A stretch of DNA of 64,000 nucleotides from a virus, in the IMG/VR virus record IMGVR_UViG_3300046096_000628, positions 1 to 64,000 of that record, one strand, 5' to 3'. Positions 6,527 through 59,285 of the stretch are shown piece by piece (position 1 is the first letter of the stretch; every line of letters begins with the position of its first letter). Below the pieces are notes generated by a model. That model did no database searches, had not been told where the DNA came from, and saw only the letters and a list, made by a program, of their open reading frames with translations. Made by a program: the position numbers and the translations under genes.

Positions 6527-7053
6527 CAAAGACTACTCAATCATGGTTGACAGAAATTAAATCAAGCCCAGCAAAACTAGAGCACTGGCTGCAACGACAA
6601 TATGTAGGTGAGGCACTTGCAGCAGACCGAATTCAAAAACTTGCAATTGCAATGAGCGGACAAGGTCGGAGAGAACTACTGCTAAAGAAGATTGCGAATG
6701 ATGAATCGAAACACTGCGAATGGATCAAACAACTTCTCATCAATAGAAGTATCCCACTGCCAGAAGTGACAATACACAATACGCGGTATTGGGAACCTAT
6801 TCTAAATCATCTAACTTCGTTTGAGGAAATTGCAGGTGCAGGACATCACGCAGAGGGAATGCGGTTGGTAAGAATTAAAGCACTGGGAGCAGATCCAGAA
6901 ATTGATGCAGACATCCGAGAAGTATTTTTAAAAATTCTACCAGACGAAGAAATGCACACGAAGGCATTCGCAGCAATGAGTACGGCTGAAGCAATTGAAT
7001 CGACCCGGACATACCATAAAAATGGATTAGAGGCTCTGGGGTTGGAAATCTAA
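6523..7053 (+). CDS. Ferritin-like diiron protein (176 aa)
   Basis: A four-helix-bundle pattern with a complete set of diiron ligands: E30, E61..H64 (NDESKH), E111 (HHAEGMRL) and E142..H145 (DEEMH). Such proteins (rubrerythrin, MiaE and amine- or acyl-oxidase relatives) use two irons to activate oxygen or store iron. The substrate cannot be read from the sequence. It overlaps the sugar-nucleotide decarboxylase by 4 nt, so oxidation or amination of a sugar-linked product is one guess; iron or oxidative-stress defence is another. Confidence 0.8.
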
Positions 7054-7063
7054 ATCAATTAAA

Positions 7064-7300
7064 ATGATACACAAATTACCCAAACCGTTCCGGGAGCAAG
7101 GACAGCAGATAGGACCAGATGGATATACAAAAGCGATCTGTGACTACTACACAGCAGAGCAAATGCTCCAATTCAGATGTGATGCAATGGAAGAAGCAGC
7201 TCAGCTGTGTAGGTCACTCGCTGTAACAGCCTGCAATGATTCAAACATTACCAGGCACGAATGTGCAGATGCTATCTGTGTCCTGGCAGGGAAGATGTAA
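7064..7300 (+). CDS. KLPxP / YTAEQMLQFR family protein (78 aa)
   Basis: Carries HKLPKPF at the N-terminus and YTAEQMLQFRCDAMEEA near residue 30, making it a paralogue of the gene at 3314 and the broken gene at 10551. The C-terminal helix has three Cys. Unknown function. Last gene of the 4132-7300 run; a terminator follows. Confidence 0.72.
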   Translation: MIHKLPKPFREQGQQIGPDGYTKAICDYYTAEQMLQFRCDAMEEAAQLCRSLAVTACNDSNITRHECADAICVLAGKM

Positions 7301-7320
7301 TACGTAAATGCCTGGTGATA

Positions 7321-7350
7321 AGAAAATGGGACTAGATGACCCATTTTTTG
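7321..7350 (+). terminator. Rho-independent terminator
   Basis: AAAATGGG, a 9-nt loop and CCCATTTT followed by more T. It ends the 4132-7300 unit, directly before the next promoter. Confidence 0.75.
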
Positions 7351-7378
7351 TTGACCTTTTAATTAAATGGGTTATAAT
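7351..7378 (+). promoter_or_regulatory. Sigma70-type promoter
   Basis: TTGACC (7351-7356), 16 bp, TATAAT (7373-7378), right after the terminator T-tract. Confidence 0.87.
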
Positions 7379-7395
7379 TTACTCATCTAAACGCA

Positions 7396-7761
7396 ATGGG
7401 TAAAATTATGAAACACGAAATCAAAGCTAATGATCGCGTATTAACTCCTGTGATGACGATTGGTCGTGTAATTTATATTAGTACAATCGATGCAATGGTA
7501 GAAACAGACACATATAACTACCCAATTGGATATAAACTAGACACGCTTGTATACATCCCGCAACTGCAATTTGCGAATGTAAAATTAGGTGTTGACCAAA
7601 TTAAGCAAGGTGCAATGGTTATGGATAGGAACAACCGATTTCACTACATCACGCGACTTATTGACGTGCCGAAAGCTGGATGGGAAATCAACACAATGAT
7701 TTGCACAACAAACACTGCAATATCTTTTTATGCCCCAGACGACTTGACTTACATTGGGTAA
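7396..7761 (+). CDS. Hypothetical protein (121 aa)
   Basis: A beta-rich protein with two similar halves, each holding a strand-turn segment (NDRVLTPVMTIGRVIYI and VDQIKQGAMVMDRNNRFHYI), suggestive of an SH3-like or KOW-like barrel; this is inference from pattern only. The start is uncertain between 7396 and ATG 7408. Single-gene unit. Confidence 0.72.
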   Translation: MGKIMKHEIKANDRVLTPVMTIGRVIYISTIDAMVETDTYNYPIGYKLDTLVYIPQLQFANVKLGVDQIKQGAMVMDRNNRFHYITRLIDVPKAGWEINTMICTTNTAISFYAPDDLTYIG

Positions 7762-7777
7762 TCATCAACGTACAGTG

Positions 7778-7805
7778 TTGACCTTTCCCCTAAATGGGGG
7801 ATAAT
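7778..7805 (+). promoter_or_regulatory. Sigma70-type promoter
   Basis: TTGACC (7778-7783), 16 bp, GATAAT (7800-7805). CCCC/GGGG pair in the spacer and ATGGG/CCCAT pair around the -10 box. Confidence 0.85.
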
Positions 7806-7844
7806 AGACCCATCGTGCGCACATAATACTAGAGTACACAAAAA

Positions 7845-8015
7845 ATGATTGAATCACCAGACCAAGCATACGAGTTAGTAAAGACAGGTCAATGGACACT
7901 TGCAGAGTTTAGCCAATGGGTGACCCACTCTCGTACAGTTGTTGACCGTGCCTACAATGAAGGTTACAATGATGGGCGAAAAGATGAAGCAGAAATGGTC
8001 TACATCGGGGATTGA
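7845..8015 (+). CDS. Small acidic protein (56 aa)
   Basis: Begins MIESPDQAYELVKTGQWTL and ends with a helix (YNEGYNDGRKDEAEMVYIGD). YNEGYNDGR is similar to the C-terminal KGYAEGLDDGRQEA of the gene at 14400. Function unknown. Ends just before the next gene. Confidence 0.65.
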   Translation: MIESPDQAYELVKTGQWTLAEFSQWVTHSRTVVDRAYNEGYNDGRKDEAEMVYIGD

Positions 8016-42381: not shown

Positions 42382-43845
42382 TTAAGCAACCCGAGCTCGA
42401 ATCTCAGCAAGCGTTGTTTCGTTGAATAATTTCCCAGTGTGGTACACCAATTGCATAACATCCTCGAATTCTTCATTCAATGGACCTCGATCCAATCGAG
42501 CAGTCATTAGTTCATTATTCATTGTGCTACGAACAAGAGTAAGTACACCCTCGAGTGATTTTTTACCCTGATCAGTGATTGGATCTTTTGCAATTCCCTT
42601 CCAGGTACCGTCTTCCATCAGGATCGCACAAGCCTTTTGCGCAAACTTAAATGTATCTCGATTTACTTTTTGCAACAATGCACCACCACTTCCAAAAATA
42701 ACATTGTCGGCGCTGAATCCCAAAGTTGCTGTGATCTTGCCCAACAGTGATCGAATCGCAGAGTGATCAACGCCATCCCCTTGGATAATTCCAACGTTAT
42801 TGATTTTTCGATATCCTTTATCATTTTTTACTGACCCAAACGCCAGTTCTTGCAAGTGTAAAATGCGAGGGACAACTTCCTGCATGTCGCCACTGTCAGG
42901 ACGAAACACAACTTTTGCTTTTGTAGCAATAATTTCATCTTTCAAAACAGTACACAACAATTCGGTCTCGCGATATACATCATATCCATCGATAACAATC
43001 GAGATGATACCACCCTCCACTGCGTTGGAGAGTTGTTTACGAAGGTACTGGATAGCATCATCTCTACCACCACCAAACGAGCACTCGATGCTATGTTCTG
43101 TGGCATATACAGAATATGCTGACATCGGCTCATTGTAATAAAAATTAGCAGTTAGAATACCTTCTACTGTGTCAGATCCCATAAAGTTGACCAAGTGAGC
43201 GAATCCACCAATCTCTGCTGTTTCTGCAGACGACACGCCACGACCACCAAAGTCATGCAACGAAAAGGGCAATAATCCCATGTCACCACCAGTGATCTCA
43301 TAGTAGTGCTTGATTTCTCGCTTGATATTGTAATCATTAGTCGCAATTGTGGTTGGGTACCACACACCACGTTGGATCATCGTCTCAAAACCAGCTGACA
43401 TCCAAAACAAATCTGCATCCAACACAGTAACAGTGTAAATTGGTTGACCACCTTTAATTGGCAACCCTTCTGGTACCGAACGGATGATAAGTGGTAAAGC
43501 TCCACCATATTCTGTTACCACTTTTTCCCAAGCTGCTCGTGCAAACAATTTACGGCCGAAGTGAGCTTCGGCAAACTGCTCTGCTGCATCGACATCTTTC
43601 ATCGAAATTCGTTGAGTAAGATATCGCTTAAGCAATAACTGCATTCCAACTGGAATGACAGTCGTTTTTGGATCAACACGAGCAGTTCCGTATGAAGTCA
43701 TGCCCTGGATACCATCAGGATAAGCAAATGGGTGTGAGAATTTATATGAATCAATTCGACAGATCAAGCTAATTTTTAATTGATCTGGTTGAACGTACTG
43801 CACATCTGTGGAAGATGGTGCAAACAATTGTTGAAATTTTGACAT
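42382..43845 (-). CDS. nadV: Nicotinamide phosphoribosyltransferase
   Basis: A 487-residue NAMPT/NadV of full length. HDFGGRG (197-203), FMGSDT (221-226), ATEHS (248-252), RPDSGD, GDGVD and FGSGGALLQK are the conserved blocks that bind phosphoribosyl pyrophosphate and nicotinamide. It makes nicotinamide mononucleotide from nicotinamide. With the NadM-Nudix gene at 45928 it forms a complete two-step NAD+ salvage route, known as NARP2 in phages and shown to counter NAD-depleting defences. AAGGAAC precedes the ATG. Confidence 0.96.
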   Translation of the reverse strand: MSKFQQLFAPSSTDVQYVQPDQLKISLICRIDSYKFSHPFAYPDGIQGMTSYGTARVDPKTTVIPVGMQLLLKRYLTQRISMKDVDAAEQFAEAHFGRKLFARAAWEKVVTEYGGALPLIIRSVPEGLPIKGGQPIYTVTVLDADLFWMSAGFETMIQRGVWYPTTIATNDYNIKREIKHYYEITGGDMGLLPFSLHDFGGRGVSSAETAEIGGFAHLVNFMGSDTVEGILTANFYYNEPMSAYSVYATEHSIECSFGGGRDDAIQYLRKQLSNAVEGGIISIVIDGYDVYRETELLCTVLKDEIIATKAKVVFRPDSGDMQEVVPRILHLQELAFGSVKNDKGYRKINNVGIIQGDGVDHSAIRSLLGKITATLGFSADNVIFGSGGALLQKVNRDTFKFAQKACAILMEDGTWKGIAKDPITDQGKKSLEGVLTLVRSTMNNELMTARLDRGPLNEEFEDVMQLVYHTGKLFNETTLAEIRARVA

Positions 43846-45927: not shown

Positions 45928-46974
45928 TTACGCTCCTATTGCCCACTGCACCATTTCGTAATGATCATCGAAGCATTGTTCACTCCGAACATCATTAATT
46001 GGAACCCACATTGCTTTTTCAGCATCGTCGCTACCTTTTATTTTCGGTAACTCACCATCAGGTAATACAAATTTAAATGCGTGCGTAATCGTACGGCCAC
46101 GCGCACTGCGATCAATTGCATCGAATACCCGTCGATCCTGGATACTACCAATTAGTACTGGTACCGGCACCTTAATCTTCGTTTCTTCACGCAGTTCGCG
46201 AATTGCAGCATCTTGCACACTTTTATCAGTGGTAGCATTCACGAATCCCCCTGGAACCGCGAACAACCCCCGCCCTGGTTCGGCGCGGCGTTTGATCATC
46301 AATACATGACCGGAACAAATTACAACTGCATCAGCTGTCACAAAAATAGGAGGGTACGGCAGACTTGCAAATTGACTCTTATACTTGTCAATGAATTCAC
46401 GCTCACGAATAATTTGTTGATAGTCTGGACTACCCTTCCAACCTTCCAACCAACGTACAGTAGGTTGTGGCAGCACAGAGCGAATGAAATTCATATTTGC
46501 ATCTTCTCGGAAATACAAATCGCGAATATCAGTTGCGTGTAGTGATTCGATCAACTCAACTTCTTCAACTTCCCACTGAGGGAACATTTTGAGGTAGAAT
46601 GAGCTGCCATCTTTATCGTGACCAATAATGCCTGTCTTGCCACCAAGCACACGATACTTAGACACAATTCCTTGCACACGCTGCATCCATGCAGTATCGT
46701 TGTATATTGTGTCAATATTAGATTCAATGTGAACACGGGTAGTGTTATCAAAGTCCCCACTGTCATACAGCTGATCCAGTACGTTGTTAAGCATCATTTT
46801 GCGCTCAGCATATGTAAAAGGATTCTTGTAGGTGCGAGGTTGGTCTGCTGAACCGATGATGATGATCAGTTCTTTTGTAAGAGTTAGTGCGCGCCGCAAA
46901 ATCTCAACGTGAGCATTGTGGGTAGGTTGGAACCGGCCAATAAATACTAACGTGTCGTATTTTTTTGTAGTCAT
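45928..46974 (-). CDS. nadM: Bifunctional NMN adenylyltransferase/Nudix hydrolase
   Basis: A 348-residue fusion. Residues 1-190: nucleotidyltransferase with GRFQPTHNAHVE (13-24) and the late ISSTDIR-like HATDIRD (146-152). Residues 205-348: Nudix domain with GGFVN (242-246) leading to AAIRELREETKI (256-267). The first part makes NAD+ from nicotinamide mononucleotide and ATP; the second cleans ADP-ribose or related nucleotides. With NadV it forms the complete NARP2 route. TTTTTTGTAG precedes. Confidence 0.95.
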   Translation of the reverse strand: MTTKKYDTLVFIGRFQPTHNAHVEILRRALTLTKELIIIIGSADQPRTYKNPFTYAERKMMLNNVLDQLYDSGDFDNTTRVHIESNIDTIYNDTAWMQRVQGIVSKYRVLGGKTGIIGHDKDGSSFYLKMFPQWEVEEVELIESLHATDIRDLYFREDANMNFIRSVLPQPTVRWLEGWKGSPDYQQIIREREFIDKYKSQFASLPYPPIFVTADAVVICSGHVLMIKRRAEPGRGLFAVPGGFVNATTDKSVQDAAIRELREETKIKVPVPVLIGSIQDRRVFDAIDRSARGRTITHAFKFVLPDGELPKIKGSDDAEKAMWVPINDVRSEQCFDDHYEMVQWAIGA

Positions 46975-47065: not shown

Positions 47066-47926
47066 TCAGTATGCAGCGATGCATTCCAAAATGGTGTTGC
47101 GGTGCAGTGTGAGGACTGGTTCAATCCCACCAGTTTTATCACGCTGGTATCCACCTGCGAGATTCCACACGATTGGAGTACCAACACCTGCACACGATTG
47201 GAAGATACCACGATCGCGTTCAATCATCTGTTCAGTAGTCATCAATCCACCGTACGGATCATTGCGGTGAATGTCAGCGCCAGCCTGATAGATTACCAAG
47301 TCGTAACGCTGGGTATCTAACATCTCCATCAAATTACGAGGATCGCAGATTGCCATTGCTTGGTCAACAGTGCGATAGCCGTTCCCATTCGTGATGTGAT
47401 GCACACGTGCAGTGAGGCCAAGGCGCTTGATAATATCATCAGTACCGTTGCCGTAGTGCATGTCAAAGTCGAGGATCAGGATACGCGAATCATTTGGTAG
47501 ACGTTTGAGTACTTCCACCGCTGTAATCATTAGTCCATTGAACGTACAGAACCCCATCGCGCGATTGTACTCAGCGTGGTGGAAACCAGACGTTGGAGAG
47601 ACGGCAACACCACCACGCTGCAGTACTTCATGAGCAGCAGCTAATAGTGAGCCGGATGTGTACGGAAGACTAGTGGCCACGTCAGGATTGAAATTTTCAA
47701 ATCCATTTGCAATAGTACAGCTGAGCACACCGTCTACGAACGCTGGATCGTGCACTGCCTTGATCATGTCGGTAGTGACTGGCTCGAATGAGCGGATTGT
47801 TAAGCGCTGGGCAATGGATCGATTCGACATCCAGTCCTCCACAACTTGTTGAGGTTTACCTGCAGATGGGCTAGCACTCACATTACTGGCTGCGACCATC
47901 TCGGGGCGGTAGAAAACTGGAATCAT
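47066..47926 (-). CDS. Histone-deacetylase-like zinc hydrolase (286 aa)
   Basis: A complete arginase/HDAC-fold set: PTSGFHHAEYNRAMGFCTFNG (H116, H117), DFDMHYGNGT (D153, D155, H157), QAGADIHRNDPYGG (D218) and LAGGYQ (Y260). These are the residues that hold Zn2+ and act on N-acyl groups in acetoin-utilization and polyamine deacetylases. The family is common in bacteria but unusual in a phage NAD cluster. It could deacylate polyamines, proteins or an acyl-ADP-ribose-type compound; the substrate is open. Not in the same operon for sure, as a 90-nt gap separates it from NadM. Confidence 0.88.
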   Translation of the reverse strand: MIPVFYRPEMVAASNVSASPSAGKPQQVVEDWMSNRSIAQRLTIRSFEPVTTDMIKAVHDPAFVDGVLSCTIANGFENFNPDVATSLPYTSGSLLAAAHEVLQRGGVAVSPTSGFHHAEYNRAMGFCTFNGLMITAVEVLKRLPNDSRILILDFDMHYGNGTDDIIKRLGLTARVHHITNGNGYRTVDQAMAICDPRNLMEMLDTQRYDLVIYQAGADIHRNDPYGGLMTTEQMIERDRGIFQSCAGVGTPIVWNLAGGYQRDKTGGIEPVLTLHRNTILECIAAY

Positions 47927-49970: not shown

Positions 49971-51041
49971 TTACTTCACAGGAATGATCAACTTTTGACC
50001 GACTGCAATGAAGTTGGGGTTAGCCAAGTTGTTGCGAGATTGGATATCACCGTACTTCATCTTGTCGCCCAGTTGAGTTTGAGCGATTGTCGACAGTGTA
50101 TCACCTTTGGTCACAACGTAACTAACTTCACCAGAACTTGCGCGGCGCACAGCAGCAGTTTTGTCGGACATGAAGTACTTTTTCAACATTTCAGTGTATT
50201 CAGGCGTATCAGTAACTTTGCGGATGGCGCTGTTCAATGCGTTGAGCAAGTCTTTGTCTCCCTTACGTACACCAATACGGTACTGAATGTCCGAGCCTTT
50301 GATCTTAGTCATTGCGAACTGCAAGTCTGTACCGTTTACTTCCGCCACAGCGAATGGGTAGTCATACATCACAGCATCGACTTTTTTGGATTTCAGGTGA
50401 CCAACGATCCACCTACCGTCAGCATCAGCTTTGTCGGACAATTCAACGATTGTTGCACTAGGGAATGCAAATTCAGCGAATGCGCGTGCATCGGGGTCAC
50501 CTTGTAGTACGCCAAGTTTGGTCACATCAGCGGCATTAGCAATCGAGGTACCTTTTGTAACGATCAGGCTGTAACCGAAATCTTTCACGTATGGGGTGGT
50601 ATACACAACACCAGGCAAGTCTTCATCATTGAATGTCAAGCCGTCGATAGCGATGTCGACCTTATTACGTTCCAATAACTGTTTCGGTACGTCAGCGTAT
50701 GTTTCAACAGCGTGGTTGGTATCGAGTTTCACCTTACCACCGAACTCACTTTGAGCAAGCACAGCATTCAGAAAGTCAACGTTGAAACCTTTTGCACGAC
50801 CGCTTTCGGAAAAGTAGAACGGCTTGGATGGGTCTTGCACGCTAACGCGAATCACGCCTTTGCCGATGACACTTTGCAAAGCGCCGCTGGTTACAGTGGG
50901 CGCACCTGCTTTGATTGCTTCAACGGTTGCAGCAGGAGCGATTGTGTTGACTTTGTTGCGGAAATCCTTGTCGTAAAACACACCAACTACAGCCAACACA
51001 ATAAGAAACAGGATAGATACGATAGTTTTTGAATTCAACAT
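49971..51041 (-). CDS. Membrane-anchored solute-binding protein with LysM domain (356 aa)
   Basis: Residues 6-23 are a membrane anchor with the rest outside (LFLIVLAVVGVF). About 60-305 is an amino-acid-type periplasmic binding fold (GVIRVSVQDPSKPFYF, FNVDFLNAVL, GLTFNDEDLPGVVYTTPYVKDFGYSLIV, YRIGVRKGDKDLLNALNSAIRKV). Residues 310-356 are a LysM domain (YVVTKGDTLSTIAQTQLG, NLANPNFIAVGQKLIIPVK) that should bind peptidoglycan. Binding protein plus LysM on one chain is unusual in a phage; it may tether a small-molecule sensor to the cell wall. Followed by two membrane genes in the same direction. Confidence 0.85.
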   Translation of the reverse strand: MLNSKTIVSILFLIVLAVVGVFYDKDFRNKVNTIAPAATVEAIKAGAPTVTSGALQSVIGKGVIRVSVQDPSKPFYFSESGRAKGFNVDFLNAVLAQSEFGGKVKLDTNHAVETYADVPKQLLERNKVDIAIDGLTFNDEDLPGVVYTTPYVKDFGYSLIVTKGTSIANAADVTKLGVLQGDPDARAFAEFAFPSATIVELSDKADADGRWIVGHLKSKKVDAVMYDYPFAVAEVNGTDLQFAMTKIKGSDIQYRIGVRKGDKDLLNALNSAIRKVTDTPEYTEMLKKYFMSDKTAAVRRASSGEVSYVVTKGDTLSTIAQTQLGDKMKYGDIQSRNNLANPNFIAVGQKLIIPVK

Positions 51042-51043
51042 TT

Positions 51044-51277
51044 TTACTTCTCCTGAGATTTAGACTGGGTCTGTGCTGCCGCTGTTTGGCACACACTTTG
51101 GTTATTTGTAGAAACACCATTCGTTGCACAGTGTGCAGCAATAGGATTGGCACCTTTAGCGACCATTTCTACAATGGCTTGGCGAGTTGTAGCACGGTCG
51201 TATGTAACACACATAATTACTGCAATGAATACGAGTGAAATACAAGCGATTATAGATACGTCAAATCGGGTCATCAT
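51044..51277 (-). CDS. Small membrane protein (76-77 aa)
   Basis: MMTRFDVSIIACISLVFIAVIMCVTY is one membrane segment; a soluble part with three Cys follows. Lies 2 nt upstream of the SBP-LysM gene on the same strand and overlaps the coiled-coil gene by 4 nt, so all three are one operon. Confidence 0.72.
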   Translation of the reverse strand: MMTRFDVSIIACISLVFIAVIMCVTYDRATTRQAIVEMVAKGANPIAAHCATNGVSTNNQSVCQTAAAQTQSKSQEK

Positions 51278-52095
51278 GCAGTTACCTTTGCTGAAGTTGG
51301 GATAGATGTGAAGGCTACCACTTGCGAAGGGCTGTTTTCCAACTGTAGTCCTGGAGTATCGTTGACCATTGTGGCACGGCTTGTGATAGGGCCTTTGCCT
51401 GCACTTGCAGCATCAGCTAGTACAGCAGAATCCATTTCCGCAAAAGCCCGATTTATCGAGTTGACCACTGAGTCAATAGCTGCATCTGTCTTCAATTGTG
51501 CCATTGGATCTTCACTACCCATACCAGCTAGCGCATTTGCTTTTTGTAGCGCTTGGCTCATCTTCCAGTTAGCGCGAAGGAATTCAATTTGTTCATCCAT
51601 TAGTTTGATATTACTCTGCAATTCAGAGTACTTGTCTTGCTTGAATTTCAGTGCTTGCTTCATAACATCAAGCTGTGCTTTGTATCGAGGAGCTGCATCT
51701 GGATATTTTTTAGCGAACCCTTGCGTCATAGTTTCGAAATTATTCACTTCCGTACCATATGCAGTTATTGCTTCTAGTTGCTGCTTGCCACGGTTCTTAA
51801 ATGCTTCTGATTGTGTCACAGCAGTTTCGATGGGATTATCTGCTGCTGCTTGTTGGACCTTTTCGAGGTGTTGAACTTTCTCGGCATCAATTGCACGATA
51901 CTTCATGTTTGAAGCTTTTAATGCAAGCACTGGTGCTACATTAATACCGATGATACCGATGATGCCCGCAATTGCGATACCGACCATGCCCGATACTGCA
52001 AGCCATGCGACTGGAGCAGCCACTGCAACTGCAAAAATTGTGATGCCCCATTTGATCAGATTGATCTTACGTTGCTTTTGAATACTATCTTCCAT
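51274..52095 (-). CDS. Membrane protein with coiled coil (273 aa)
   Basis: AGGA 7 nt before ATG 52095. Two membrane segments at about 18-70 (GITIFAVAVAAPVAWLAV and GIAIAGIIGIIGINV), then a long coiled coil over about 75-200 (EKVQHLEKVQQ, QALKFKQDKYSELQSNIKLMDEQ), and a C-terminal part. This plan recalls the PspA/TelA-type membrane-stress modules that pair a coiled-coil membrane protein with other membrane factors, but I cannot assign it to either. Confidence 0.75.
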   Translation of the reverse strand: MEDSIQKQRKINLIKWGITIFAVAVAAPVAWLAVSGMVGIAIAGIIGIIGINVAPVLALKASNMKYRAIDAEKVQHLEKVQQAAADNPIETAVTQSEAFKNRGKQQLEAITAYGTEVNNFETMTQGFAKKYPDAAPRYKAQLDVMKQALKFKQDKYSELQSNIKLMDEQIEFLRANWKMSQALQKANALAGMGSEDPMAQLKTDAAIDSVVNSINRAFAEMDSAVLADAASAGKGPITSRATMVNDTPGLQLENSPSQVVAFTSIPTSAKVTA

Positions 52096-52157: not shown

Positions 52158-52355
52158 TTAGCAACCAAAATACTTGATAATGACTTCTAGTGCTGGGAGA
52201 AGTGTTGTTTGGTTGAAGGCTAAATCTTCCGGATGCATGTACTCGCCTTTTTTCAAGTGTGCTTTTATTTCTTTTTTGATCAGCGAGCGCTGATCTTTCA
52301 GTACGAGCACGGTGATCGCATCTGCTGCTTTGTGATCGAGTTCGATTTTACTCAC
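52158..52355 (-). CDS. Small helical protein (65 aa)
   Basis: GTG start with GGAGG just upstream. KAADAITVLVLKDQRSLIKKEIKAHLKKGEYMHPEDL: helical, Lys-rich; a common small-phage-protein type with unknown role. Overlaps the upstream gene by GTGA-type spacing. Confidence 0.7.
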   Translation of the reverse strand: MSKIELDHKAADAITVLVLKDQRSLIKKEIKAHLKKGEYMHPEDLAFNQTTLLPALEVIIKYFGC

Positions 52356-52525
52356 ATCACCTCCACTTCGTTCATGAATTCCTGGAACAAAAATTGATCA
52401 CTCATTGCTTCAGTCAGACCGTGTTTGGTGGCTACGTTATACCCCATTAATTTAGCATACGCGGCGTTTTCACGAATGAAATCGGCATACTCTTGAGAAG
52501 TCAACAACATGGAATATTGGTTCAT
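52352..52525 (-). CDS. Small acidic protein (57 aa)
   Basis: ATG 52525. MNQYSMLLTSQEYADFIRENAAYAKLMGYNVA: helical, acidic, unknown. First gene of the minus-strand unit begun by the promoter at 52551. Confidence 0.65.
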   Translation of the reverse strand: MNQYSMLLTSQEYADFIRENAAYAKLMGYNVATKHGLTEAMSDQFLFQEFMNEVEVM

Positions 52526-52550: not shown

Positions 52551-52579
52551 AGTATACCCTGAAGTGGTGGCATTGGCAA
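52551..52579 (-). promoter_or_regulatory. Sigma70 promoter (minus strand)
   Basis: TTGCCA (52579-52574), 17 bp, TATACT (52556-52551). Starts the leftward membrane/periplasm unit. Confidence 0.8.
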
Positions 52580-52896: not shown

Positions 52897-53613
52897 ATGA
52901 TTATTAACAACAACGCAAAACACCACGTACTGTACGTGTGTCAAGAATCTATAATCCCACCAGGAATTGACTCGCTTATGGAGCAGTTGAGTGAACAACT
53001 TGATATCCAATTTGAACGGGTATCGTCCGTTCGTGCAGTGTTGGAAGCAGCTGGGAATTTTGCGGTTAGCATCGATGCTATTGTGCTAGACATCGATTCG
53101 CTAAACGATGGTGAGGGGGCTACGATATTTGATATTGTTAATACCATCACAACGCTACTACGCTATCACAAATTGGCTTCAAATCCTCAATGCACAACCG
53201 AAAACTTACCTGCCATCGTTGTAGGAGTAAATGCTACAACAGATCCGAAGCGTATCCGCGAGTTGCTGGCGATTGCAAATATTTCTGGAGTATACCCAGG
53301 TGGATACGATTTCTCACTCAATGAAAAAATCACAGCAATGCGTGAATTCATCAACAGACGGTACCACGTCCCGAAGTCGATAAAGCAACTGCTATCTACC
53401 AAAAGCAAGGTGATAGGTCAAGAGGTTCCCAATGCGCTCACCACTAGACAATCCCAGATTTTGGATTTGGTCATTACAAGAGGAGCAAGCAACAAAGCGA
53501 TTGCAAATATCCTCCACATTACAGATAGTACAGTGAAGTTGCACATGACATCAATCCTGAAAAAGTGTGGTGTACGGTCACGGACACAACTGGTCGCATT
53601 TCACACAAAGTAG
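52897..53613 (+). CDS. LuxR/NarL-type response regulator (238 aa)
   Basis: GGGAGG before the ATG. Residues 8-150 look like a receiver-type domain (VLYVCQESII, AIVLDIDSLND, AIVVGVNATTDPKRIREL, GVYPGGYDFSLNEKI), with D97 a possible phosphate or pocket residue. Residues 175-235 are a clear HTH of the LuxR type (LTTRQSQILDLVITRGASNK.IA, STVKLHMTSILKKCGV, SRTQLVAF). It should bind DNA and switch genes of the host or the phage; its own neighbours (the surface cluster just downstream) are the first suspects. Confidence 0.9.
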   Translation: MIINNNAKHHVLYVCQESIIPPGIDSLMEQLSEQLDIQFERVSSVRAVLEAAGNFAVSIDAIVLDIDSLNDGEGATIFDIVNTITTLLRYHKLASNPQCTTENLPAIVVGVNATTDPKRIRELLAIANISGVYPGGYDFSLNEKITAMREFINRRYHVPKSIKQLLSTKSKVIGQEVPNALTTRQSQILDLVITRGASNKAIANILHITDSTVKLHMTSILKKCGVRSRTQLVAFHTK

Positions 53614-54775: not shown

Positions 54776-55459
54776 ATGTACAAAAAAATCACACACAATG
54801 TAGTGGAGGAACACTTCGCTCACCCACTCGCAGCGCAATTGAAAAAGCAAATTGATAAGACGAAACCAGCCCCACCAAAAAACAAAGAAACGCTCACAGG
54901 ACCGTTGGACCTCGATGCACACAAATTGTTTAATAAACTGCACTGGGGTGTGCGGAACTACGTAGTTAGTGCGCTCGGTCCAAACGATGATAGCACGATA
55001 CTAATCAAAACGACACTACTAAAAGATGTTTTAGAATTTGCACCATTTTTTAATGCATATTATCCAACTACAATTGGATCATCGGTTGTAACCCACCTAA
55101 CTGGATTTGTCAATTCAGTTACGGACGTGGTGCAAGCAGCTCGATCCGGAAAAGATTTTACATCACCACTTACTGCTACACGAGGACATCTCGATGCACT
55201 AGCGGGAGTTATCAGTGCTGCTAATCAAACGAGCTGGCCCGCACCAACAGTTAAGGCATACCTTCATGAATATTTAATGAAGGTGGTCGATCAGATAATT
55301 GCGCGCACTAAAAAGGATTGGAAAGCTGATCTAGAAGCTGCGACACTAGCACACAATGTTTTAACTACAGGACCAATTTCCTTCGGAACACTCAAAAGCA
55401 GTCCTGATTTTGCGTGCGTAGTAGTTAACGGAATTCGTAATCAATTCCCGATAAAGTAA
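54776..55459 (+). CDS. ITHNVVEEH-type helical protein, copy 1 (227 aa)
   Basis: AAGGAG before the ATG. Starts MYKKITHNVVEEHF; the rest is helical (WGVRNYVVSAL, LLKDVLEFAPFFNAYYP, SWPAPTVKAYLHEYLMKVVDQIIA). The next gene has the same start and plan. From pattern, both resemble a helical family whose members are annotated misleadingly as acetylglutamate kinase in Bacillus and large viruses (with PYYG and FLS..NP.W blocks). True function unknown. Confidence 0.75.
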   Translation: MYKKITHNVVEEHFAHPLAAQLKKQIDKTKPAPPKNKETLTGPLDLDAHKLFNKLHWGVRNYVVSALGPNDDSTILIKTTLLKDVLEFAPFFNAYYPTTIGSSVVTHLTGFVNSVTDVVQAARSGKDFTSPLTATRGHLDALAGVISAANQTSWPAPTVKAYLHEYLMKVVDQIIARTKKDWKADLEAATLAHNVLTTGPISFGTLKSSPDFACVVVNGIRNQFPIK

Positions 55460-55468
55460 GGAACCAAT

Positions 55469-56167
55469 ATGTACAAAACCATCACACACAACATCGTTGA
55501 AGAGCATTACGGTCAAGATCAAGGAGAACGGCTGAAATATGTCAATCCTCAAACGGGATTAACAGACTATCTCCCTCAATTTGTAATGAACGAAAACACA
55601 ATGACTTTTAGAATGGACTCGAGGTCAATTTGGGCCAAATATGCTTGGGGATTGTTAAATTACGGCATCAGTATGAATGCTGGCCTACCAGTGATGGAGC
55701 AAGTAGAGGCAAGGGTGTTTAAAAATGCACGCGCTTTAGGAGATTTCATTACTCCATACTACGGTATTACTGCTGGATTGCGATTTGGTGATTTGCTGTC
55801 TAGTATTGGCCAAGTAGGCATTGATGTAGTCAAAGCTACAAAAGAAAAAGAGTCGCTCGACAAGTATAAAGTAATGTGGGCTGACCACATTGCAACACTT
55901 GCCGAATTTCTAAACGAGCTCAACCCCAACAATTGGCCTGAAGTTACTACAACTGAGTATCTTACAAATATGGTAAGTTTTTGGGTCGATGAGATTCAAG
56001 CGCGGGCGGCAAACAATCAGAGTGCAGATGAAGCAGCAATCGAAAGCTTAAACAAGTTGATAGTGATGGGTATACCAAATAGTGTGCCGAGTCACAAAGC
56101 CTCGAGTTTGAGTGATTTGTTCAGTCGCGGAATAATTGCACAGTACCCAGCGCTGTTTGCTGCATAA
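55469..56167 (+). CDS. ITHNIVEEH-type helical protein, copy 2 (232 aa)
   Basis: AAGGA before the ATG. MYKTITHNIVEEHYGQ start, then IWAKYAWGLLNYGISM, LGDFITPYYGITAGLRFGDLLSS, LNELNPNNWPEV and LFSRGIIAQYPALF. The helical plan and blocks (ITPYYG..., NPNNWPE) match the family named above more clearly than copy 1 does. Same operon as copy 1. Confidence 0.8.
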   Translation: MYKTITHNIVEEHYGQDQGERLKYVNPQTGLTDYLPQFVMNENTMTFRMDSRSIWAKYAWGLLNYGISMNAGLPVMEQVEARVFKNARALGDFITPYYGITAGLRFGDLLSSIGQVGIDVVKATKEKESLDKYKVMWADHIATLAEFLNELNPNNWPEVTTTEYLTNMVSFWVDEIQARAANNQSADEAAIESLNKLIVMGIPNSVPSHKASSLSDLFSRGIIAQYPALFAA

Positions 56168-58550: not shown

Positions 58551-59285
58551 ATGCACGAACTCAGAGCAGACCCCGTTGATTTCAGAGACTTTGCGTATCA
58601 AGTAATTGGCACTCCACTCAAACGTGTCATAGATTTGCGTCCGTGGGCAAGTCGAGTTGAGAATCAAGCAGATCTAGGTAGTTGTACTAGTGCCGCTGTA
58701 ATTGGTGCGTATGAATTGTTACTAAAAAAGACAACTCCCGGTAAATTCGACGAACTTAGTAGCCTATTTGTGTACTACAACGCTCGTGTTTTAGAGGGGT
58801 TTCCGAACGATGATGTTGGTGCATATCTCCGAACAGCAATAAAAGCGGTTCACAAATATGGGGTATGTATGGAAGAATTGTGGCCATATCACATACAAAC
58901 TTTTACACTACTTCCACCAGTAGAATGCTACGAAGATGGCAGCAAGCGAAAGATTAAAAACTACAATCGACTATCAGGCATTGTAGATATTCTGGATGCT
59001 ATTAACCAAGAGCGGCCAGTGGTAATTGGAGTGGATCTATATGATGAGTTCGAACAACTGGATGCGTGCAATGCTACACTACAAAGTCCAGCGAAAGATC
59101 AATCGCCAAGTGGTGCCCATGCGCTTTGTTTAATTGGGTACGATTTGGATCGTCGGGTATTGTTGTGTAGAAATAGCTTTGGAGAGGAGTGGGGTCTAGG
59201 TGGATATTTCTGGATGACGTTCGAATATGCCGAGCGAGAAATGATTGACGCTTGGGTATTTGACATTGATTTATTTGAGCACTAA
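58551..59285 (+). CDS. Papain-like cysteine protease (C1 family, 244 aa)
   Basis: Begins MHELRADPVDFRDFAY. Q39 and C45 (NQADLGSCTSAA), H190 (SGAHALCLIGYD) and N208 (LCRNSFGEEWGLGGYFW) form the full catalytic set in C1 order. It should cut peptides; it lacks a visible inhibitory prodomain. In this cluster it may mature a surface or virion protein, or act on the host surface. The following gene starts 11 nt after its stop. Confidence 0.9.
   Translation: MHELRADPVDFRDFAYQVIGTPLKRVIDLRPWASRVENQADLGSCTSAAVIGAYELLLKKTTPGKFDELSSLFVYYNARVLEGFPNDDVGAYLRTAIKAVHKYGVCMEELWPYHIQTFTLLPPVECYEDGSKRKIKNYNRLSGIVDILDAINQERPVVIGVDLYDEFEQLDACNATLQSPAKDQSPSGAHALCLIGYDLDRRVLLCRNSFGEEWGLGGYFWMTFEYAEREMIDAWVFDIDLFEH

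Follow-up and report, generated by a model that had tools for sequence, protein, structure and literature searches.

The trio and its recurrence in phages

We analyzed a 64-kb window (positions 1 to 64,000) of the 139,057-base virus record IMGVR_UViG_3300046096_000628 from IMG/VR, in which three adjoining leftward genes encode a coiled-coil membrane protein (here CC), a 77-amino-acid (aa) protein with one predicted transmembrane (TM) helix, and a solute-binding protein (SBP) ending in a LysM domain (SBP-LysM). The original prediction for this DNA described the three as one compact leftward unit, and this is borne out, as the CC and small-protein open reading frames (ORFs) overlap by 4 bp and only 2 nt separate the small ORF from that of the SBP. 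It listed the SBP gene first and the coiled-coil gene third, but transcription runs in the reverse order, from CC through the 77-aa protein to SBP-LysM. Judged by gene order and domain content, the trio represents a module of the form "CC - (one-TM adaptor) - SBP". The module is apparently undescribed, with the CC family lacking a function in Pfam, NCBIfam and PHROGs and no paper on the CC-SBP pair found among open-access papers.

Evidence for such a module comes from linkage. An SBP gene lies downstream of CC in all 28 distinct CC loci recovered, and its product is from either of two unrelated families, SBP_bac_3-LysM (self-anchored) or TAXI (secreted). SBP-LysM is encoded in seven IMG/VR contigs at 64-73% identity, including contigs of 353 and 238 kb, and CC is upstream in the same orientation in all seven; recurrence of the pair in these contigs and in bacteria is far beyond chance. 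Searches with CC profiles added L018-L020 and Achromobacter phage Motura, in which CC precedes a small one-TM protein and then an SBP of TAXI type rather than SBP_bac_3. The same three-gene order occurs in Vibrio phages RYC, Va1, and K406, whose CC proteins are remote but alignable by profile comparison (see below). A Motura TAXI query and a Vibrio CC query, run separately, returned the identical eight Vibrio phages. A scan of viral contigs with the RYC CC gave no matches. As a prospective test of linkage, a single TAXI query brought up three new contigs (L071-L073), in each of which the TAXI gene is preceded by CC and a TM gene of 53-54 aa. That the pairing is kept while the SBP is swapped for an unrelated family is strong evidence of a functional unit.

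Linkage is not always tight, with other genes inserted in L005, L006, and L007 and the CC-SBP spacing there 1-2.6 kb. An SBP with a similar domain in Pseudomonas phage Cygsa01 was considered as a further member and rejected, as it lacks CC and retains a canonical Arg discussed below; it represents an independent acquisition of an SBP gene by phage. The Cygsa01 gene (L011, 5836-6729) is annotated as HisJ and adjoins an N-acetyl-diaminobutyrate deacetylase-like gene.

The solute-binding protein and its pocket

The joining of a small-molecule-binding fold to LysM, as originally proposed, is confirmed by matches to Pfam SBP_bac_3 over residues 64-291 (4.9e-18, 65.6 bits against a cut-off of 26.4) and to LysM over residues 308-354 (1.8e-13, 50.6 bits against 20.9). 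The N terminus is hydrophobic and is predicted to be a TM anchor. The LysM is common to several endolysin PHROGs, with the match confined to the LysM part, and searches of Pfam and PHROGs found no catalytic or hydrolase domain in the trio, in agreement with the earlier remark that no lysis plan is visible. PADLOC gave no defense match for the SBP domain. The TAXI SBP of Motura reaches 76.5 bits against TIGR02122, under the curated cut-off of 84.35, and also matches NMT1_3.

To view the pocket, we aligned 20 CC-linked SBP_bac_3 proteins with AncQR, a solved amino-acid-binding SBP, as reference. In all 20, Asp/Asn-type residues stand where the "TEER/TDKR" motif has its Arg and the G-[ST]-[ST] loop reads GDPD[AV], while the second-lobe Asp is retained. 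The substituted positions (the Arg and the G-S-T loop) are the alpha-carboxylate contacts in LAO/HisJ structures. As the positions holding the carboxylate are replaced, the ligand is probably something other than a plain alpha-amino acid; a cationic ligand would be a guess. ABC permeases (PF00528) were absent from nine phage records, comprising the window's and eight others, with all 14 control genomes positive, and TRAP DctM (PF06808) was absent from the same nine, with controls positive in 7 of 14 genomes.

The small one-TM protein

The 77-aa protein has its TM helix at the N terminus, followed by a predicted periplasmic tail with two Cys, and has no significant family match in Pfam or PHROGs. 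It fills the slot held in TAXI modules by one-TM proteins of 42-66 aa, the genes for which lie between CC and TAXI in 8/8 distinct modules first compared and are also present in the three of three recovered later. Modules of the SBP_bac_3-LysM type, in which the SBP is self-anchored, are mostly without an intervening one-TM gene, the window with its 77-aa ORF being the exception. From these arrangements we infer that the SBP needs holding at the inner membrane, either by its own helix or by a small protein.

The coiled-coil protein

The original description of two membrane helices and a coiled coil fits CC, in which a single long hydrophobic stretch at the N terminus has room for two TM helices and the coiled coil follows, with helices at 88-130 and 135-189 in the AlphaFold2 model (per-residue confidence, pLDDT, about 85-90). 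Basic residues flank both sides of the TM hairpin, which suggests that the coiled coil faces the cytoplasm at the inner membrane. Conserved motifs include an invariant NPIET and a C-terminal LKxDxAxDSVxxSxNxAFAxME. The three CC subfamilies are alignable over almost their full length (hhalign, 95.9-98% over about 197 columns; E 5e-9 in the 95.9% run). CC matches phrog_27316 (1.4e-28), which is without an assigned function, and no Pfam or NCBIfam family matches it above cut-off.

Two known families were considered for CC and neither was adopted. XpaC (PF10112) resembles it in having two N-terminal TM helices and then further helices, but no Pfam match to it was listed, and hhalign against one XpaC sequence gave 27% over 25 TM-region columns. 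The other, PspA/ESCRT-III, was prompted by the C-terminal motif and by weak fold matches, and is weighed in the Discussion with the reading that it touches. The best viral fold match is to a protein of Ralstonia phage RP12 (E 1e-7). In PADLOC, CC matches PD-Lambda-1 weakly (2.7e-5, about 120 of 496 positions), in a manner that looks coiled-coil driven.

Transcription and neighboring genes

The leftward unit and its surroundings are summarized in Table 1. A TTG alternative start would lengthen the 273-aa CC ORF. The two ORFs upstream of CC, which are conserved in that position in L006, probably share its transcript. A promoter had been proposed near 52551, and a sigma-70-like match does end there; such matches are not above chance in the region, however, with 5 observed against 6.1 expected from shuffles.

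Table 1. Coordinates of features in the window.
Feature	Coordinates	Strand	Remarks
CC	51274..52095	-	273 aa from ATG at 52095; first gene of trio
Small one-TM protein	51044..51277	-	77 aa; middle gene of trio
SBP-LysM	49971..51041	-	356 aa; last gene of trio
Intrinsic-terminator-like hairpin	49954-49931	-	10-pair stem, 5 GC, T tail; directly past SBP stop codon
Sigma-70-like promoter match	52579-52551	-	TTGCCA-17-TATACT, 10/12 match; upstream of leftward unit
65-aa ORF	52158..52355	-	Upstream of CC; 58% identical ORF in same position in L006
57-aa ORF	52352..52525	-	First of leftward unit; 61% identical ORF in same position in L006
LuxR-type (GerE) transcriptional regulator	52897-53613	+	Divergent from trio; 42% homolog in same divergent position in L006
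Histone-deacetylase/acetylpolyamine-amidohydrolase superfamily protein	47066-47926	-	PF00850, 8.2e-33; same leftward gene block
NAMPT-like phosphoribosyltransferase	42382-43845	-	NAD salvage pair with next row
Bifunctional NMN adenylyltransferase/Nudix (NadM-Nudix)	45928-46974	-	NAD salvage pair with previous row
Papain-family cysteine protease	58551-59285	+	Peptidase_C1, 1.8e-13
ORF with start MYKxITHNxVEEHx	54776-55459	+	Adjacent to next, with similar start
ORF with start MYKxITHNxVEEHx	55469-56167	+	Resembles tandem duplicate of previous row

The two adjacent rightward ORFs with similar starts are preceded by small Gly/Tyr-rich ORFs. The best solved relatives of the deacetylase-superfamily protein are HDAC6-like proteins and bacterial HDACs.

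In Motura (L010, 15755-19565), a homospermidine synthase gene follows the TAXI gene directly and a glutathionylspermidine synthase gene lies one small gene further. This synthase pair (hss-gss) has been noted previously, and the passages found do not mention the adjacent module (PMC9992855). The Motura synthase genes, together with the lost carboxylate Arg, prompted us to consider a polyamine as the ligand. It is kept as no more than a lead, because the window's HDAC-like gene is not specifically an acetylpolyamine amidohydrolase by sequence.

Several membrane-related genes accompany the module elsewhere. An SPFH/Band-7 gene occurs near CC in phage L007 and adjoins CC in the bacterium G721, the two being 32% identical over 440 columns. 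The L007 copy (6652-7914) lies between CC and SBP, and its relatives are in a 462-kb uncultured phage (44%), crAss-like phages, and Vibrio phages. A gene for a Na_Ca_ex-family antiporter adjoins the module in nine Burkholderia-group loci and in G721, and a gene for a TPR/Ser-rich protein directly after CC is common to L005 and L007. Together, the SPFH, antiporter, and TPR/Ser-rich neighbors hint at membrane and ion homeostasis. L006 and L007 also share genes for a one-TM protein of 108 aa and for a lipoprotein-like protein (168/170 aa), which precede CC in L007 (3707-4543) but are between CC and SBP in L006 (6962-7934); the L007 copies have no family match.

Occurrence and evolution in bacteria

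The pair is also found in bacteria. CC and SBP-LysM occur amid ordinary chromosomal genes in four freshwater beta-proteobacterial metagenome-assembled genomes, for which binning is a caveat, and the four SBP-LysM relatives are 61-63% identical to that of the window. In the Burkholderiales genome G292, the pair is at 1.43 Mb of a 2.6-Mb contig, and a 3.5-Mb replicon of Burkholderia arboris carries an SBP 92% identical, with CC upstream. The SBP is present in 26 of 61 Burkholderia-group genomes (the genus of G292). TAXI-type modules occur in the bacteria G002 and G721, and as G002 has the TAXI type plus the LysM type, both can be found in one bacterium. Convergent downstream of the TAXI-type module of G002 (L034, contig C19, 251-2243) are genes for a response regulator and a sensor histidine kinase. 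Wider sampling matched few genomes, 2/399 at the level of order, 2/369 of class, and 3/399 of phylum (one weak, over 63 positions), each count including the center genome, and the module is therefore sporadic. As it resides on bacterial chromosomes, it is neither phage specific nor a lysis cassette.

Phylogenetic comparison suggests a mobile history. The CC tree places the window with L007 and the freshwater bacteria (100/100), the SBP tree places it with L002 (96/97), and the starred branches force at least two changes between phage and bacterium in the CC tree and at least one in the SBP tree. As the trees disagree, the CC and SBP partners seem to have been re-assorted with the pairing kept, with long branches making the joins uncertain. 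These patterns would fit exchange of the module between large phages and proteobacteria.

Discussion

An envelope role, which the original prediction had proposed, is the best remaining reading of the module. Plausibly, though we would place it somewhat below an even chance, the module couples a periplasmic sensor or tether to a cytoplasm-facing membrane scaffold that would act in envelope homeostasis in the manner of PspA. The CC hairpin would leave the coiled coil on the cytoplasmic side of the inner membrane, and the SBP would be periplasmic, anchored to that membrane through either its own helix or the small protein, the LysM version being tied to peptidoglycan as well. The ligand of the SBP would be a small molecule, probably other than a plain alpha-amino acid and perhaps a cationic one, and occupancy of the SBP, or strain on the wall, would be relayed across the membrane to CC. 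CC could then assemble as a scaffold that stabilizes or reorganizes the membrane, so that the module acts like a PspA/SPFH-type envelope-stress system. For phages it would serve as a host-takeover gene set, maintaining the envelope through a long infection, and for bacteria it would be an accessory envelope-homeostasis operon. The broader proposal of an undescribed envelope-surveillance system, in which interchangeable permease-less SBPs serve as periplasmic ligand sensors on a CC scaffold that does PspA-like work and is exchanged between phages and proteobacteria, is more tentative still.

A functional precedent is known from Bacillus subtilis, in which membrane recruitment of PspA depends on an SPFH protein together with two TM proteins (PspA-YdjGHI; PMC8581546). 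The pspA-ydjGHI operon, in which YdjI is the SPFH protein, resembles the CC module in having a membrane-associated coiled-coil protein and small membrane partners, with SPFH in some loci, and in its proposed part in envelope surveillance. The ydj operon has no SBP, whereas the CC module has one in place of the sensor, and CC differs from PspA in carrying its own TM hairpin and in having no significant sequence or fold match to it. PspA_IM30 (PF04012) gave no match at E<=1 among the matches listed for eight CC members, and Foldseek hits to Vipp1 and CdvB (E 0.7-1.6) and to a viral Snf7 protein (0.039) came from models with pLDDT of 60-63.

Several observations weigh against the sensor-scaffold reading. 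An hhalign comparison of CC with a six-sequence PspA alignment gave 72% over only 59 coiled-coil columns, and Foldseek of the CC model against the PDB returned nothing below 0.001. Because of this, together with the negative Pfam result, CC is not classed as PspA; the weak Snf7, Vipp1, and CdvB matches leave room for a PspA-like action. CC models have an overall pLDDT of 60-63 (63 for the window's CC) and are poor in the TM and C-terminal parts, the topology is predicted solely from hydrophobicity and charge, and the presence of a coiled coil argues only weakly for a membrane scaffold. SPFH genes, which are present in crAss-like and Vibrio T5-like phages, occur in many phages where CC was not detected, and no SPFH gene is in the window's record. 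For these reasons SPFH is possibly a chance neighbor, and it was rejected as a constant member of the module.

An alternative that we consider unlikely is nutrient scavenging, with the phage SBP capturing a solute for a host transporter and CC a loosely associated membrane protein. SBP_bac_3 and TAXI are both transport families, and metabolic takeover genes are neighbors in phages, including NAMPT and NadM-Nudix in the window, a nicotinate phosphoribosyltransferase near the module of Vibrio phage RYC, and polyamine-type synthases near that of Motura. The module SBP shares with amino-acid ABC SBPs (LAO, HisJ, GlnH) the family SBP_bac_3 and detectable solved-structure relatives, but it differs in the replaced carboxylate Arg, the TM anchor, the LysM, and the CC partner, and, unlike in amino-acid ABC importers, no permease accompanies it in the phage records. 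Similarly, module TAXI SBPs resemble TAXI-type TRAP receptors in their TIGR02122 (below cut-off) and NMT1_3 matches, but come after CC and a small TM protein and lack DctM in those records. Scavenging also sits poorly with an SBP_bac_3 version that has a predicted attachment to both membrane and wall and has lost the alpha-carboxylate site, and with a constant CC whose SBP switches between families serving different permease types. A match to a known transport family was named at the outset as grounds for abandoning the envelope idea; the SBP domain is indeed transport associated, but with no permease found in the phages, and with CC persisting across a change of SBP superfamily, the module is not naturally read as a transport system.

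Superinfection exclusion or anti-phage defense, in which the module would block DNA entry or sense another phage at the wall, appears improbable. The membrane and periplasm location, the mobile distribution between phages and bacteria, and the PD-Lambda-1 match of CC would suit it, but that match covers just a quarter or so of the profile, the SBP domain has no defense match, and a conserved ligand pocket with exchange of SBP class suits small-molecule sensing better. The exclusion system offered in the original prediction is thus unsupported, since the module is chromosomal in many Burkholderia-group genomes and the PADLOC match is weak and of coiled-coil type. A lysis or lysis-timing cassette of spanin, holin, or LysM-endolysin kind is very improbable, for although several endolysin PHROGs also have LysM and CC is a TM protein, a hydrolase domain is lacking, residence in Burkholderia-group chromosomes is stable, and Motura has a separate endolysin gene of its own about 13 kb from the module. 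That three unrelated early genes are merely adjacent is barely credible and already contradicted, as the inserted genes of L005, L006, and L007 and the differing nearest relatives in the two trees are outweighed by linkage in every locus recovered from phages and bacteria, by the three prospective confirmations, and by its persistence with two unrelated SBP families.

Parts of the module have been seen before. In the Ralstonia jumbo phages RP12 and RP31, a TAXI-like protein is among putative functional genes named singly, not as a module (PMC5468394). The module is present in phages available in culture (Motura, Vibrio Va1, and RYC), which makes it directly testable.

In large and jumbo phages as well as on bacterial chromosomes, the pair has been retained despite the SBP swap. 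If the sensing model is true, the module would show how large phages monitor or manage the envelope of a host that they occupy for a long time, and it would represent a further, non-kinase role for permease-less SBPs.
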